Positions 3,123 through 33,814 of a stretch of DNA of 33,903 nucleotides are shown piece after piece; position 1 is the stretch's first letter; each line of letters begins with the position of its first letter. The position numbers and the translations under genes were made by a program. Origin of the DNA: a virus; IMG/VR virus record IMGVR_UViG_3300021185_000291, positions 1-33,903 of that record. One strand, 5' to 3'. The notes under the pieces were generated by a model. It was not told where the DNA came from. It worked only from the letters and a program-made list of their open reading frames with translations, and made no database searches.

Positions 3123-3458
3123 TTGTCTCTAAAATTATCGAATCTAGCCAGAGTAATGGAAGAGTTTCGAAAATTTGATAGCGAGATGCAATCGCAAACA
3201 ATACTTGCTTTTATAATCGTTGCTAACAAACGTAGTCAGAACTCAACTGTTTCAATAGGAGAAGTAGGTGCCTTACTAGGTATCACCTCAGCATCTGCAA
3301 GCAGAAACATAGCAGCCTTGACTGCCTTTTCCAGGCATCGGAGAAAAGGGCATGACCTTATCACCACCTATGAGAACCCTGAGTTTCGGGTAGAAAAATT
3401 CATAGAGTTAACTGAGAAGGGTAAGGCTTTAGTAACTAGGTTAGAGGATATCATATGA
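3123..3458 (+). CDS. Winged helix-turn-helix regulator (MarR-like)
   Basis: A 111-residue DNA-binding protein. The recognition region SIGEVGALLGITSASASRNI (about residues 41-60) is a good helix-turn-helix, and ELTEKGKAL near the end resembles the wing-plus-helix close of MarR-type proteins. The start is TTG 3123, 9 bases after AGAGGAG (3107-3113); ATG 3156 is an alternative that would remove 11 residues. Its stop overlaps the integrase start (ATGA), so the two are coupled. By position it is a candidate regulator of lysogeny or of integrase direction, perhaps acting at the TACAC-NN-GTGTA palindromes; that link is inference. Confidence 0.7.
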   Translation: MSLKLSNLARVMEEFRKFDSEMQSQTILAFIIVANKRSQNSTVSIGEVGALLGITSASASRNIAALTAFSRHRRKGHDLITTYENPEFRVEKFIELTEKGKALVTRLEDII

Positions 3459-4438
3459 GTATCACACCAAGGGGTAACGGCTTTCAAGTTTATGTAGCTG
3501 TTAACGGTAGTAAGTTTCGCCGTACTGTATCCACTCGCGGCGAAGCTACATCACTGGAGCAATCAGCAAGGCAGGCCTTAATGTTAGGCAAGCCTGTCCC
3601 AAGCGAAGGCATTACTGTCTCTCACACTTGGGGTCTGAAGGAAGCTGCAGACAAATGTTATAAGATGAATTGGGTAGGTACTAAGTCAGAGTCCAAGCTC
3701 ATCTTAGTAATGAACGAGGTAGTCAAGTGGTTCGGTAAGGATAGAAGTATATCCGACATAACAACTGAGCTAGTTGATGAGTTCATTATGGAACAGAAGA
3801 CAAAGCGCAGGGCTAACGCGACTATCAATAGAAAGCTTGCCTGTCTTTCTAAGATACTACGCTTCTCAAAAGAGAGAGGTAAACTACCAAACGGTATGCC
3901 CACCCTGTCACGCCAGAAGGAAGGCATGAATAGGATACGCTTTCTTTCAACGCAAGAAGAACAGCAGTGCTTAGACACATTAGAAAGCTGGGGCTTCACA
4001 GAACTTTATGATGCTTTCGTTGTATCAATAGACGTAGGCATGAGAGCAGGTGAGATGGCTAAGCTAGATGCAAAGTGTATTGACAAACATGGCGTGTACC
4101 TGGTGGACAGGAAGAATGGTATGCATGGGCTAGTGCCTCTCACTACTCGCGCACGTCAATCCCTTGAACGTAGGGTTGCAGTGGCTGGCGGTGGCAAACT
4201 CTTTGGTACTTTCCCACGCTCAAAGTGGCATCGGGTTATTAACCATCTAGAACTAGAAGATGTTGTCTGGCATACCCTAAGACATACTACTTGCAGTCGC
4301 CTTGTGCAGCGTGGTATGCCCCTTGTGCATGTCAAAGAATGGATGGGTCACAAGGCTATCCAGACTACAATGAGATACGCACACCTCGCCCCAAAAAATC
4401 TAGAGGTTGGTGTATCTTTACTAGAGCAGGTAGATTAA
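3455..4438 (+). CDS. int: Tyrosine site-specific integrase
   Basis: Recombines phage and host attachment sites. The 327 residues carry the full catalytic set: Arg197 in GMRAGEM, His273 and Arg276 in HTLRHT, His299 in MGHK and the nucleophile Tyr308 in TMRYAHL. The N-terminal third contains a core-binding SAM-like helical domain, preceded by an arm-binding-type segment. ATG 3455 overlaps the stop of the winged-helix gene. The attP region follows directly (tRNA-Leu fragment at 4560), the usual arrangement for tRNA-targeting integrases. It shows the phage is temperate or recently was; integrases of this kind occur in some marine T7-like phages. Confidence 0.95.
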   Translation: MSITPRGNGFQVYVAVNGSKFRRTVSTRGEATSLEQSARQALMLGKPVPSEGITVSHTWGLKEAADKCYKMNWVGTKSESKLILVMNEVVKWFGKDRSISDITTELVDEFIMEQKTKRRANATINRKLACLSKILRFSKERGKLPNGMPTLSRQKEGMNRIRFLSTQEEQQCLDTLESWGFTELYDAFVVSIDVGMRAGEMAKLDAKCIDKHGVYLVDRKNGMHGLVPLTTRARQSLERRVAVAGGGKLFGTFPRSKWHRVINHLELEDVVWHTLRHTTCSRLVQRGMPLVHVKEWMGHKAIQTTMRYAHLAPKNLEVGVSLLEQVD

Positions 4439-4457: not shown

Positions 4458-4486
4458 GTGTCCTTAGCAGTGTCCTAAGTGGCGTA
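4458..4486 (+). repeat. Tandem GTGTCCT sites left of attP
   Basis: Two copies in tandem: GTGTCCTTAG (4458-4467) and GTGTCCTAAG (4470-4479). The second belongs to the 17-base repeat GTGTCCTAAGTGGCGTA (4470-4486), which recurs exactly at 4730-4746, on the other side of the tRNA fragment. The placement on both sides of the attachment core fits arm-type integrase or excisionase sites. Confidence 0.55.
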
Positions 4487-4559: not shown

Positions 4560-4600
4560 GGGGGCATGGTGAAATTGGTATACACAACAGACTTAAAATC
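4560..4600 (+). other. attP: attP core: 5' half of tRNA-Leu(UAA)
   Basis: From 4560 the sequence reads as the first half of a bacterial tRNA-Leu: a seven-base acceptor strand GGGGGCA, TG, D-arm GTGAAATTGGTATACAC, then ACAGA and the anticodon loop CTTAAAA (anticodon TAA). After TC at 4599-4600 it departs: the stem partner of ACAGA would be TCTGT but the phage has TCCCT, and no variable or T arm follows. So this is not a functional tRNA but a region of identity with the host gene. Crossover near the anticodon loop would join the phage 5' half to the host 3' half and keep the tRNA intact. The exact edges need the host sequence. Confidence 0.8.
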
Positions 4601-4685
4601 CCTGCCTCCCTTTCTCCACTTCTGTAAATACTACATAAACATATAGCCACCAACGGCTGTAACCCCCAAGGGTAGACATTATATA

Positions 4686-4715: not shown

Positions 4716-4746
4716 TAGGACACAATCTGGTGTCCTAAGTGGCGTA
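4716..4746 (+). repeat. Inverted and direct GTGTCCT sites right of attP
   Basis: TAGGACAC (4716-4723), six bases, GTGTCCTA (4730-4737) form a perfect inverted repeat. The right arm is the start of the 17-base direct repeat GTGTCCTAAGTGGCGTA (4730-4746), identical to 4470-4486. Together with the left pair this gives four GTGTCCT half-sites flanking the tRNA fragment. The last repeat merges with the ribosome site of the polymerase gene (AGGAG, 4746-4750). Confidence 0.55.
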
Positions 4747-4755
4747 GGAGATAAC

Positions 4756-5526
4756 ATGCCGACATTAGAAGAGCAGTTAGAACTAGAAGAGCAGATGCTT
4801 AGTGATGGTGTCAGTCGATACCAAAGCAACACAAACAAACTAATAGAGAAGGGTATCGAATCTAATACACAGCATGGCCGGGCTATGATTGCTGCCATCG
4901 TCAATGCTGTAGCTGATGGGGTATCTGATATTCAAAGAGACGTTACAAGTAATCGGGATATTACTAGAAAAAATTTACAGGGAATGGATGCCCACCAAGT
5001 TGCATACCTATCCCTTATCACAGTAGTCGATGAAGTATCCAAGAGGTTTACCTTAATGAAGGTAGCCAAGAGCCTTGGGTCTAACATCGAACTACAGAAG
5101 AGGCTTAGCCTTTGGGTTGAGGCTGAGGGTAAGTCAGCAATCAACGTAATCAAGAAGGCCAACGAGAAATCTAGCAAGCTACATAAGAGACAAGGCCTAG
5201 TCCATAAGATGAACAAGGATGGTTACAACCATACTGAATGGACTAACGAAGAACGTATCCATGTAGGTATGAGGTTGGTAGATAAGATTATTATAAAGAC
5301 AGGGTTGGTCAGGCTAACCAAGTCAGTGAAGAAGAATAAAACTATTACCTATCTGGAAGCTACCCCCGAAACTCTGGCTTGGGTTCAGAAGTTTAACACA
5401 CATCAAGAAGTTATGAAGCCACGTTATGCTCCATCACTCATACCCCCTAGAGATTGGGACGATGTAATTGGTGGGGGATACCACAGTCAAGTCATCAATC
5501 AACTACCAATCGTGAGGGTACACTGA
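4756..5526 (+). CDS. T7-like RNA polymerase, N-terminal-domain subunit (split gene, part 1)
   Basis: A 256-residue protein matching the N-terminal domain of single-subunit phage RNA polymerases, the part that in T7 contacts and opens the promoter. It includes the helical MDAHQVAYLSLITVVDE segment and ends PPRDWDDVIGGGYHSQ then PIVRVH, which aligns with T7 PPKPWTGITGGGYW through LVRTH, about residue 300 of 883. There the frame stops (TGA 5524-5526) and the rest of the polymerase is encoded by the next gene in the -1 frame. Start ATG 4756 follows AGGAG (4746-4750). Both halves together (about 809 residues) approach a whole enzyme, so the likely product is a two-chain polymerase; a frameshift joining them is an alternative. 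Confidence 0.85.
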   Translation: MPTLEEQLELEEQMLSDGVSRYQSNTNKLIEKGIESNTQHGRAMIAAIVNAVADGVSDIQRDVTSNRDITRKNLQGMDAHQVAYLSLITVVDEVSKRFTLMKVAKSLGSNIELQKRLSLWVEAEGKSAINVIKKANEKSSKLHKRQGLVHKMNKDGYNHTEWTNEERIHVGMRLVDKIIIKTGLVRLTKSVKKNKTITYLEATPETLAWVQKFNTHQEVMKPRYAPSLIPPRDWDDVIGGGYHSQVINQLPIVRVH

Positions 5527-7187
5527 TGAAGAAAAAATCTAGAGAGTATCTTGATAGGCTACGCCAGCAAGACATGAGTGTGGAGTATCGCTGCATCAAT
5601 GGACTCCAGCGCACCCCTTGGTCAATCAATAAGCCTGTGCTTGAGGTAATGAGAACAGCATGGGACAGCGGTGAAGAGTGGGCTGGCCTCCCTCCTCGTG
5701 AAGACTTACCCTTACCTGTGTACCCATTCGATAAAGACCCGCAGGAAATGAGCGAGGCAGAGAAGTTACTGTTCAGAGATTGGTCGAGCAAACGCAACCG
5801 TGTGTACCAAGCGAATGGTAAGTCAATGTCACGGCGTATCCAGGTGGAGCGTACACTACAGCTTGCCAACCACTACGCCAAGTACGATGAGTTTTACTTT
5901 GTGTGGCAACTGGACTTCCGTTCACGCAAGTATCCTGTCGAGTCCTTCATGTCACCGCAGGTTGCCGATTGGGGTAAGGCTCTTATTGGATTTACATACG
6001 GCTTCCCTATCAACGATGCAGGAGATGCTGATTGGCTCGCCATTCACGGTGCTAACCTGTTCGGTAATGACAAGGTATCCTTTGCTGAGCGTATCCAGTG
6101 GGCATGGGATAGCGAGGATGACATAGTAAAGGTAGCTGAGAACCCACTTGATTACATGTGGTGGACGCAGGCCGACAAGCCTTGGCAGTTCCTTGGCTGG
6201 TGTATGGAATGGTACGGCCTACTACGACAGGGCTGGGGATACTACACCCACCTACCCTGCGCTGCTGATGGTAGCTGTAATGGACTACAGCATCTAAGTG
6301 CAATCCTGCTTGATGAGCAGGGTGGTAGGGCTACTAACTTAATACCATCAGATGCACCGTCAGATATATACACTGATGTAGCAATTAGGGCTGAGACTTT
6401 AGTAAAGCAAGATGCCCAAGATGGTAATGAGATGGCTAAGAAATGCTTAGAGTTTGGCATCACTCGCAGTCTAACCAAGAGGCCTGTGATGATTACTCCT
6501 TACAGTGGCACACAACACGCTTGCCGTGAGTACATCCAAGACGCTATCGCTGATAGGATTGAGAAGAAGGGAGACAGTAACCCCTTTGGTGATGACTACT
6601 TTGAAGCCTCGCTCTACCTCAGCCGACATATTTGGCAGGGTATTAACGAGACTATCTCATCAGCCCGGCAGGTAATGGACTACGTTAAGACCATCGGCTC
6701 ACACTACGCTGATGCTAACAAACATATGGAATGGATAACGCCTACTAATTTTCTAGTTGTCCAGCCCTACCTCAATACTAAGAAGCGGAGGATAGAAACA
6801 CACATTGATGGTAGTATTGTACGACTAAGCTATCAACAAGAACTAGAAGATGTGAACAGGTCACGCATAACTTCTGGTAGCTCCCCTAACTTTATCCATT
6901 CACTGGATGCAGCAGCCCTGACTGAGACAGTGGTGCGTTGTATGGATGGGGGGATGACTGACTTTGCTATGGTTCACGACAGCTATGGTACACATAGCCC
7001 TAACATGCCAGTGCTTAGTCAGGTTTTAAGAGAAGCCTTTGTTGAAATGTATCAGGAGAATGATGTATTACAACAGCTTCGTGACCATGCTTGTTACACT
7101 ATAGGAGATAATACACTACCCCAACCACCAACAAAAGGTGGCCTAGATTTGAGCAAGATACTGGAATCACAGTACTTCTTTGCTTGA
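5526..7187 (+). CDS. T7-like RNA polymerase, catalytic subunit (split gene, part 2)
   Basis: A 553-residue polymerase body starting MKKKSREYLDRL at ATG 5526, which overlaps the stop of part 1 (TGATG) and has its own ribosome site GAGGG (5514-5518) 7 bases upstream. Catalytic motifs are complete: DFRSR (Asp130, Arg134; T7 D421/R425), motif A ADGSCNG with Asp248 (T7 D537), motif B Arg314, Lys318, Tyr326 (T7 R627, K631, Y639) and motif C HDS with Asp485 (T7 D812). It ends QYFFA, like the conserved FAFA foot of T7. Spacing of motifs agrees with T7, so nothing essential is missing from the catalytic part. The frame is open back to 5454, which means a -1 frameshift could also fuse the halves. Confidence 0.93.
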   Translation: MKKKSREYLDRLRQQDMSVEYRCINGLQRTPWSINKPVLEVMRTAWDSGEEWAGLPPREDLPLPVYPFDKDPQEMSEAEKLLFRDWSSKRNRVYQANGKSMSRRIQVERTLQLANHYAKYDEFYFVWQLDFRSRKYPVESFMSPQVADWGKALIGFTYGFPINDAGDADWLAIHGANLFGNDKVSFAERIQWAWDSEDDIVKVAENPLDYMWWTQADKPWQFLGWCMEWYGLLRQGWGYYTHLPCAADGSCNGLQHLSAILLDEQGGRATNLIPSDAPSDIYTDVAIRAETLVKQDAQDGNEMAKKCLEFGITRSLTKRPVMITPYSGTQHACREYIQDAIADRIEKKGDSNPFGDDYFEASLYLSRHIWQGINETISSARQVMDYVKTIGSHYADANKHMEWITPTNFLVVQPYLNTKKRRIETHIDGSIVRLSYQQELEDVNRSRITSGSSPNFIHSLDAAALTETVVRCMDGGMTDFAMVHDSYGTHSPNMPVLSQVLREAFVEMYQENDVLQQLRDHACYTIGDNTLPQPPTKGGLDLSKILESQYFFA

Positions 7188-7188
7188 G

Positions 7189-7207
7189 TTCTAACCTTCC
7201 CCTATAG
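7189..7207 (+). promoter_or_regulatory. Candidate phage RNA polymerase promoter (copy 1)
   Basis: AACCTTCCCCTATAG at 7193-7207 is repeated exactly at 15397-15411; extended by four bases (TTCT here, TTCA there) the match is 18 of 19. Both copies lie in intergenic gaps directly before functional modules. The CTATAG end resembles the initiating end of T7-type promoters (CTATAG with G at +1). This copy precedes the replication block. Confidence 0.65.
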
Positions 7208-7234
7208 CCTATTAGTTACACTCAAGGAGACATT

Positions 7235-15392: not shown

Positions 15393-15411
15393 TTCAAACC
15401 TTCCCCTATAG
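15393..15411 (+). promoter_or_regulatory. Candidate phage RNA polymerase promoter (copy 2)
   Basis: Second exact copy of AACCTTCCCCTATAG (15397-15411), in the gap just after the reductase and before the virion genes. If transcription starts at G15411 as in T7-type promoters, the leader of the next gene is only 12 bases. It would drive the late structural block. Confidence 0.65.
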
Positions 15412-15422
15412 GTACTATCATT

Positions 15423-32842: not shown

Positions 32843-33312
32843 TGCCCTATATAGGTAAAGCCCCTCTTGCGGGTAAGTTCCAAATCGTTTCTACATCTGC
32901 TGTTAGTGGTGAACCTGCTAAGTTTTCTATGACTGTAAACAGTGCGGCCTTCAAGCCAGCAACAGCGGAGCAGTTAATTGTATCAGTCAACGGTGTGACA
33001 CAAGCACCTGTTAGTGCCTATAGTGTATCAGGAAGTAACATCATCTTCTCTGAGGCACTTAGCGCATCTGACAACATCGACTACATACTAGCCCTTGGCG
33101 AAGTAGCTAACACAGTAACCCCAACAGACGGTTCAGTAGATGCTAACAAACTCTCGTCAACAATAAGCCGTGGTGGTGCAGCACACATCAGGGTCAACCC
33201 TAACAGCCTTACAGTAGACACAACGATTGCAAGTGGTGAGAACGCTTTAGTAGCAGGACCATTTACACTGAGTGCAGAGTTGACTGTTAATGGCACATTC
33301 ACGGTGGCTTGA
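32842..33312 (+). CDS. Tail fibre protein, immunoglobulin-like module
   Basis: 156 residues from ATG 32842 (MPYIGKAPLAGKFQIVS), chosen because it overlaps the stop of the chaperone gene and because this MPYIG-P opening is a recurring marine phage fibre start; the frame reaches back to 32824. It contains the module LIVSVNGVTQAPVSAYSVSG and EVANTVTPTDGSVDANKL, related to the one in the 284-residue fibre, then a short beta region. It ends without a large head domain, so it may be a connector between fibres. Confidence 0.7.
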   Translation: MPYIGKAPLAGKFQIVSTSAVSGEPAKFSMTVNSAAFKPATAEQLIVSVNGVTQAPVSAYSVSGSNIIFSEALSASDNIDYILALGEVANTVTPTDGSVDANKLSSTISRGGAAHIRVNPNSLTVDTTIASGENALVAGPFTLSAELTVNGTFTVA

Positions 33313-33313
33313 T

Positions 33314-33814
33314 ATGAGTAAACTTTATGTAAATGAAATAGCCAGTAAAACTGGTTCAACTACAGCCATGACGATTGATAGTTCGGGGCGTGTGTTACAG
33401 CCAGCACTGCCAGCCTTTCGTGCGTACGGACAAGATGCTTCGTGGACCGATTATACGGATGGTCAAATACTTACATTTAAAAACGCAAGTACAGGTGATT
33501 ACTTTAACCAAGGCGGTCACTTCAATGAAAGCACATACAAGTTCACTTGCCCTGTTAATGGTGTGTACCTCTTTGGGTTTAGTTTGTATGTGATGGAAAA
33601 CGATAGTAACGGTTCGTTTACTTTGTACAGAAATGGAACTGAATTGAGTAATGGGTTCAAAATCCAAACTGGCGATAACAGCACTACAGATAGAACATTC
33701 AGCGCAACGTGGACATTATTGTGTTCTAGCGGAGATACGATTGCGGTTCATTGTAAAAGCGCAATGGATGTCTATGGACAGTTCTCGCAATTTCACGGTC
33801 ACTTAGTAGGATAG
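33314..33814 (+). CDS. Tail fibre protein with C1q-like domain
   Basis: 166 residues from ATG 33314 (MSKLYVNEIASKTGSTTAMT), the start of a conserved fibre anchor module ending IDSSGRVLQP. The rest is a C1q/TNF-like sandwich: NGVYLFGFSLYVMEN, FTLYRNGTELSNG, SSGDTIAVHCKS and final FSQFHGHLVG, a classical layout for such domains. It probably forms a trimeric receptor-binding tip. The next fibre gene starts with the same anchor module. Confidence 0.8.
   Translation: MSKLYVNEIASKTGSTTAMTIDSSGRVLQPALPAFRAYGQDASWTDYTDGQILTFKNASTGDYFNQGGHFNESTYKFTCPVNGVYLFGFSLYVMENDSNGSFTLYRNGTELSNGFKIQTGDNSTTDRTFSATWTLLCSSGDTIAVHCKSAMDVYGQFSQFHGHLVG

Follow-up and report, generated by a model that had tools for sequence, protein, structure and literature searches.

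T7 RNA polymerase serves as the textbook example of a single-subunit enzyme. T7-like polymerases in two chains are already known as a kind: RNA polymerase II of phage N4 (gp15/gp16) has been shown experimentally to be a heterodimer of T7-like polymerase parts (PMC4496689), an engineered T7 RNA polymerase works as co-expressed fragments with splits near residues 67, 179 and 601 (PMC4299498), and all group III HTVC019P-type phages except HTVC011P carry a fragmented polymerase (Chen et al. 2019, PMC6811365). Here we analyse a T7-like RNA polymerase encoded as two overlapping genes, for a promoter-binding chain N and a catalytic chain C, in the 33.9-kb IMG/VR virus record IMGVR_UViG_3300021185_000291 (positions 1–33,903; this whole stretch is referred to as the window). 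The split is real and is conserved throughout a large phage clade. The position of the cut in this clade, its apparent independent repetition and a putative re-fusion are, as far as we found, undescribed in the literature.

The two genes and the landmarks around the split are as follows.

4756–5526, plus strand: chain N, the promoter-binding (N-terminal) domain of a T7-like RNA polymerase (256 amino acids, T7 residues about 34–300)
5526–7187, plus strand: chain C, the catalytic body of a T7-like RNA polymerase (553 amino acids, T7 residues about 297–883)
5514–5518, plus strand: GAGGG, the ribosome-binding site of chain C, within the final Val-Arg codons (GTG AGG) of chain N
5524–5528, plus strand: TGATG, in which the stop of N overlaps the start of C and which marks the fission point (T7 residue 300/301), from the sequence and the table of junctions in relatives
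6267–6269, plus strand: catalytic Asp of motif A (T7 D537), unchanged in every relative, split or single chain
6978–6980, plus strand: catalytic Asp of motif C (T7 D812), also invariant

The open reading frame (ORF) of chain N terminates in PIVRVH followed by TGA, chain C opens at ATG 5526 with GAGGG 7 nt before it, and the chain C frame extends upstream without a stop to TTG 5454. The single polypeptide of the T7-like family is thereby represented by two genes, in the window as in all close relatives. In HMMER alignments, T7 residues 34–300 match chain N (1e-12) and residues from about 297/302 to 883 match chain C (1e-84; 3e-84), with zero residues lost between the chains. Pfam agrees, with RPOL_N in chain N (1.2e-12, 48 bits) and RNA_pol in chain C (2.5e-108, 363 bits), both above cut-off, and PHROG 414 matches both chains, by profile positions 4–265 for chain N (1.3e-43) and 253–816 for chain C. 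The residues equivalent to T7 D421, R425, D537, K631, Y639, H811 and D812 are all retained, and all lie in chain C. An original prediction for this locus had thus placed the overlapping genes at the correct coordinates and was borne out on the continuous T7 homology across the junction, the cut near residue 300 between promoter domain and catalytic body, the confinement of the catalytic residues to the second part, and that part's ribosome site and upstream open frame.

Related phages, where the prediction had proposed to look for the same split, share it: the site is identical in 81 of 81 other viral contigs with both halves readable, and none carries a fused gene, a recurrence well beyond what chance would give. 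These contigs belong to the same clade, come from many different metagenomes and have chains N that are 43–98% identical. A wider, alignment-based scan found every readable new locus with at least 51% identity to chain C of the window to be split (55 loci, some of which sit on contigs already counted), and all 16 more distant loci (43–49% identity to that chain) to be single chain. Both scans combined give 95 distinct split sequences. No intact polymerase copy was found in the 14 genomes or records tested, each of which has one chain N and one chain C; a scan of genome contigs found no relative, and a scan with L078 alone recovered only L078 itself.

The recurrence of the split bears directly on a sequencing or assembly indel in an ordinary single-chain gene, which the original prediction had allowed for and which would need little in the window contig, where a single base would unite the frames. 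This alternative is excluded because the same split appears in contigs from many different metagenomes. A second lineage, that of the group III HTVC019P-type pelagiphages, shows a split in isolated phages as well, and read mapping in a published relative of that lineage gave no unsplit reads (PMC6811365). We regard the chance of such an artefact as vanishingly small.

The junction itself takes several forms. Among relatives, the two genes overlap by 4 nt (ATGA, TTGA), 1 nt (TGATG, TAATG) or 11 nt, abut in frame with a gap of 0 (TAAATG), or are separated by a 1-nt gap in the +1 frame (TAAGATG) or by longer gaps of 11, 14 and 19 nt, and all three frame relations between N and C are present. In the window and most relatives, chain C lies in the −1 frame relative to chain N and overlaps it, as would suit a programmed −1 ribosomal frameshift that yields a full-length chain additionally or instead. 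However, where a programmed frameshift would go with a constant frame relation and overlap, junctions are +1 in L027, L031–L034, L036, L084 and L213, in frame behind the stop in L088 and L214, and elsewhere opened by gaps of 11–19 nt or interrupted by genes, and in many relatives the chain C frame is open just 4–25 nt upstream of the N stop. Because the junctions vary in frame, gap and inserted genes, the −1 frameshift fusion that the original prediction had kept as an option is excluded, and we hold a programmed frameshift at this site to be highly improbable.

What is conserved instead is the start codon of chain C together with its Shine–Dalgarno site, the latter shifting along with the former. 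In overlapping junctions, the ribosome site is formed by the terminal Val-Arg codons of chain N (GTG AGG). In L025 and L028, a gap precedes the start and contains the ribosome site, and the Arg is encoded by CGC. Of 25 cluster representatives, 20 use AGG for this Arg, compared to a background of 24% of Arg codons (nominal binomial probability 6e-9, for sequences that are not independent). Unrelated genes have also inserted repeatedly at the fission point (L009, L078, L164 and L109, which is HTVC025P): a C5-cytosine methyltransferase gene lies between the halves in L009, thyX (ThyX) in L078 and several small ORFs in L164.

Both chains are under purifying selection, with ratios of non-synonymous to synonymous substitution rates (dN/dS) among six close relatives of 0.05–0.10 for N and 0.04–0.07 for C, and the residues equivalent to T7 D421, R425, D537, Y571, R627, K631, Y639, H811 and D812 are invariant across the split clade. 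The distances of N and C correlate (Mantel r 0.89), with no sign in this correlation of partner swapping between the chains. Relative to chain C, chain N evolves no faster than it does in single-chain enzymes, with an N:C divergence ratio of about 1.25 in split compared to 1.22 in single-chain enzymes. A broken, decaying polymerase could be suspected from the description of the pelagiphage gene by Chen et al. as ‘fragmented’ and their mention of gene interruption (PMC6811365), but the low dN/dS of both chains, the invariant catalytic residues, the conserved ribosome site and the unremarkable N:C ratio make a pseudogene extremely improbable.

The second lineage comprises the pelagiphages HTVC041P, HTVC025P, Eyrgjafa and S30-C28 and Chosvirus KM23C739, with uncultured relatives, all cut at the same domain boundary. 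In a tree that includes single-chain sisters, the clade of the window (100/100) has single-chain enzymes as its sisters (98/97), and the pelagiphage/Chosvirus split group (100/100) is placed elsewhere. A single clade of both split groups was rejected with the single-chain sisters included (approximately unbiased (AU) test, P = 0.002); in the tree of a smaller sample, which lacked the closer single-chain sisters, a common clade was not rejected (P = 0.23). Rejection of the common clade points to at least two independent natural fissions at one domain boundary, which is our best reading of these trees.

The pelagiphage/Chosvirus split group also holds the single-chain polymerase of HTVC011P (L112). 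Around the RRYLEEL segment, its gene carries the DNA of the chain C start of its split relatives read in the N frame, with NALQSSKSKYRRYLEEL instead of MHYNLIKATNRRYLEEL, and it is one base shorter than these relatives in that region. The HTVC011P polymerase is best read, from this apparent scar, as a re-fusion of split chains. As a separate observation on sequence motifs, the DxxGR motif (T7 421–425; window 5913–5927) is DFRSR in 20 of the 25 representatives of the window's clade, with Ser for T7 G424; DFRSR is also found in part of the pelagiphage/Chosvirus group and in just one of 17 single-chain enzymes.

To place the cut in the fold, we modelled the chains separately with AlphaFold2 (AF2). 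Chain C has a predicted local distance difference test (pLDDT) score of 90 and template modelling (TM) scores of about 0.80–0.88 to T7 RNA polymerase in all states. Chain N has a pLDDT of 85, with low confidence in the final 36 residues, after the hinge equivalent. In Foldseek comparisons, its model is closest to the T7 N-terminal domain as it stands in elongation complexes (TM 0.76–0.79 for the top matches, root mean square deviation 3.4–4.0) and reaches TM scores of only 0.39–0.44 against promoter or early-transcribing complexes (1cez, 3e2e); this elongation-like shape may reflect a bias of modelling the domain in isolation. One study of the T7 enzyme divides it into an N-terminal domain, 1–300, and a C-terminal domain, 300–883, and places the moving hinge (C-linker) at residues 258–266 (PMC3961267). 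The cut at 300/301 coincides with this boundary and leaves the hinge uncut inside chain N, so the cut as such need not alter the rotation of the promoter domain at initiation.

Two genes, conservation across the clade, purifying selection, initiation signals, catalytic residues and T7-like folds are together best read as a polymerase that is very probably an obligate heterodimer of a promoter-binding and a catalytic chain, translationally coupled. A two-chain T7-like polymerase in a temperate T7-like phage, as originally predicted, is likewise the best reading. Chain N would comprise the promoter-binding domain, the hinge (T7 258–266) and a short anchor (T7 267–300) that docks onto the catalytic body, and chain C the thumb, palm, fingers and entire active site. 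On finishing chain N, ribosomes would reinitiate at chain C by way of the ribosome site within the final codons of N, so that both chains would be made in matching quantities; the resulting dimer would recognize its own promoters of roughly 20 nt and initiate transcription, and the N domain would rotate about the uncut hinge in the fashion of T7. We infer the assembly of the chains, the recognition and use of promoters, activity and 1:1 coupling. Several points weigh against the heterodimer. The low-confidence last 36 residues of the chain N model, the presumed anchor, would be compatible with a docking segment; the model is elongation-like rather than initiation-like, such that promoter binding would need a rearrangement on docking; the promoter motifs are proposed from position and conservation; and the reading as a whole draws on sequence and predicted structures.

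The structural data also bear on the role of chain N within such an enzyme. It could be a detachable, sigma-like specificity subunit that loads chain C at promoters and then leaves, or that is separately regulated. The original prediction had likewise raised the separate promoter domain as a possible control point. The cut falls exactly on the boundary between promoter domain and body, apparently reached twice independently, and chain N in isolation is predicted to fold by itself, with an elongation-like conformation, which would fit such a subunit; but the genes are strictly coupled and the chains diverge in step, which suggests fixed partners at 1:1, and both parts are fused in HTVC011P. We therefore judge this explanation of the split very unlikely, and a dissociable sigma-like chain N, exchanged or controlled on its own and released once the promoter is escaped, quite unlikely. 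Were it true, a cut at this hinge region would have been selected twice because it frees the domain that has to rotate when the enzyme switches to elongation.

An obligate heterodimer would use cognate promoters, for which the window holds two candidates.

7189–7209, plus strand: candidate cognate phage promoter TTCTAACCTTCCCCTATAGCC, directly past the polymerase stop, from position and conservation
15393–15413, plus strand: second candidate promoter copy TTCAAACCTTCCCCTATAGGT, ahead of the structural genes

A promoter-like motif (typically TTCTAAAGTTAC..CCTAGCC) lies right behind the polymerase genes in most clade representatives, less clearly in L078, L019, L023 and L036, and additional copies are present in all four genomes checked. 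From their position and their TATAG/CTAG ending, these copies are likely cognate promoters. In G003 (11131, minus strand) and G005 (7334, minus strand), a promoter-like motif stands just upstream of chain N and is oriented away from the polymerase genes.

The gene order of the window is T7-like, running from DNA methyltransferase, phosphoadenosine phosphosulfate (PAPS) reductase, regulator, tyrosine integrase, RNA polymerase and single-stranded DNA (ssDNA)-binding protein through endonuclease, primase/helicase, DNA polymerase, exonuclease and ribonucleotide reductase to portal, scaffold, capsid, tail proteins, internal virion proteins and tail fibres. The integrase gives it a temperate T7-like layout.

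3455–4438, plus strand: tyrosine integrase, preceding the polymerase genes (Pfam Phage_integrase 1.5e-17; PHROG 1)

Just downstream of the integrase, positions 4560–4604 resemble the 5′ half of a tRNA-Leu(UAA), matched by annotated phage tRNA-Leu genes elsewhere, and are probably the attP site. A 17-nt exact direct repeat, GTGTCCTAAGTGGCGTA, at 4470–4486 and 4730–4746 flanks this presumed attP region; its second copy lies immediately before the ribosome site of chain N, and L001 and L002 have a single copy. At the ends of the window, a PAPS reductase-like auxiliary gene (1427–2188) adjoins the DNA methyltransferase gene, and a C1q-domain protein (33290–33814; Pfam PF00386, 2.3e-10) at the end of the tail-fibre region is possibly a receptor-binding tip.

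Natural split, fused and putatively re-fused enzymes offer a way to ask why T7-type polymerases are usually single chains. The split ones, in particular, let one ask whether a separate promoter domain alters initiation, promoter escape and abortive transcription, and for synthetic biology they would be a source of naturally evolved split polymerases.

Compared to T7 RNA polymerase, the enzyme of the window shares the fold, the domain order, the catalytic residues and probable T7-style promoters, and its genes occupy the position usual in temperate T7-like relatives, after the integrase and before the ssDNA-binding protein; it differs in its two chains, in about 30 fewer N-terminal residues and in the DFRSR that mostly replaces DxxGR in its clade. 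The engineered split T7 enzymes are artificial, and the text of PMC4299498 as consulted here names no split point at about 300. RNA polymerase II of N4, which the original prediction had cited as precedent, holds as a two-chain T7-like enzyme whose two genes match non-overlapping parts of T7 RNA polymerase, as in the window. It is nevertheless a weaker parallel, as its cut lies at about T7 residue 455, after DxxGR, leaving that motif in the first chain and motifs A, B and C in the second, whereas the window is cut at 300 with the DxxGR equivalent in chain C; moreover, its N domain is truncated, it uses gp2 and ssDNA, and its genes do not overlap. The pelagiphages and Chosvirus are much closer. 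They too have two adjacent genes and a separate chain C start with a Shine–Dalgarno site, and HTVC025P has one or more genes between the polymerase halves, as do some members of the window's clade. Their cut (Fussvirus/Stopavirus: HTVC041P, HTVC025P, Eyrgjafa) falls about 8–10 residues earlier, such that the LPLVK strand belongs to a chain C starting MHYNL(I/F)K, whereas in the clade of the window this strand ends chain N (LPIVRVH in the window).
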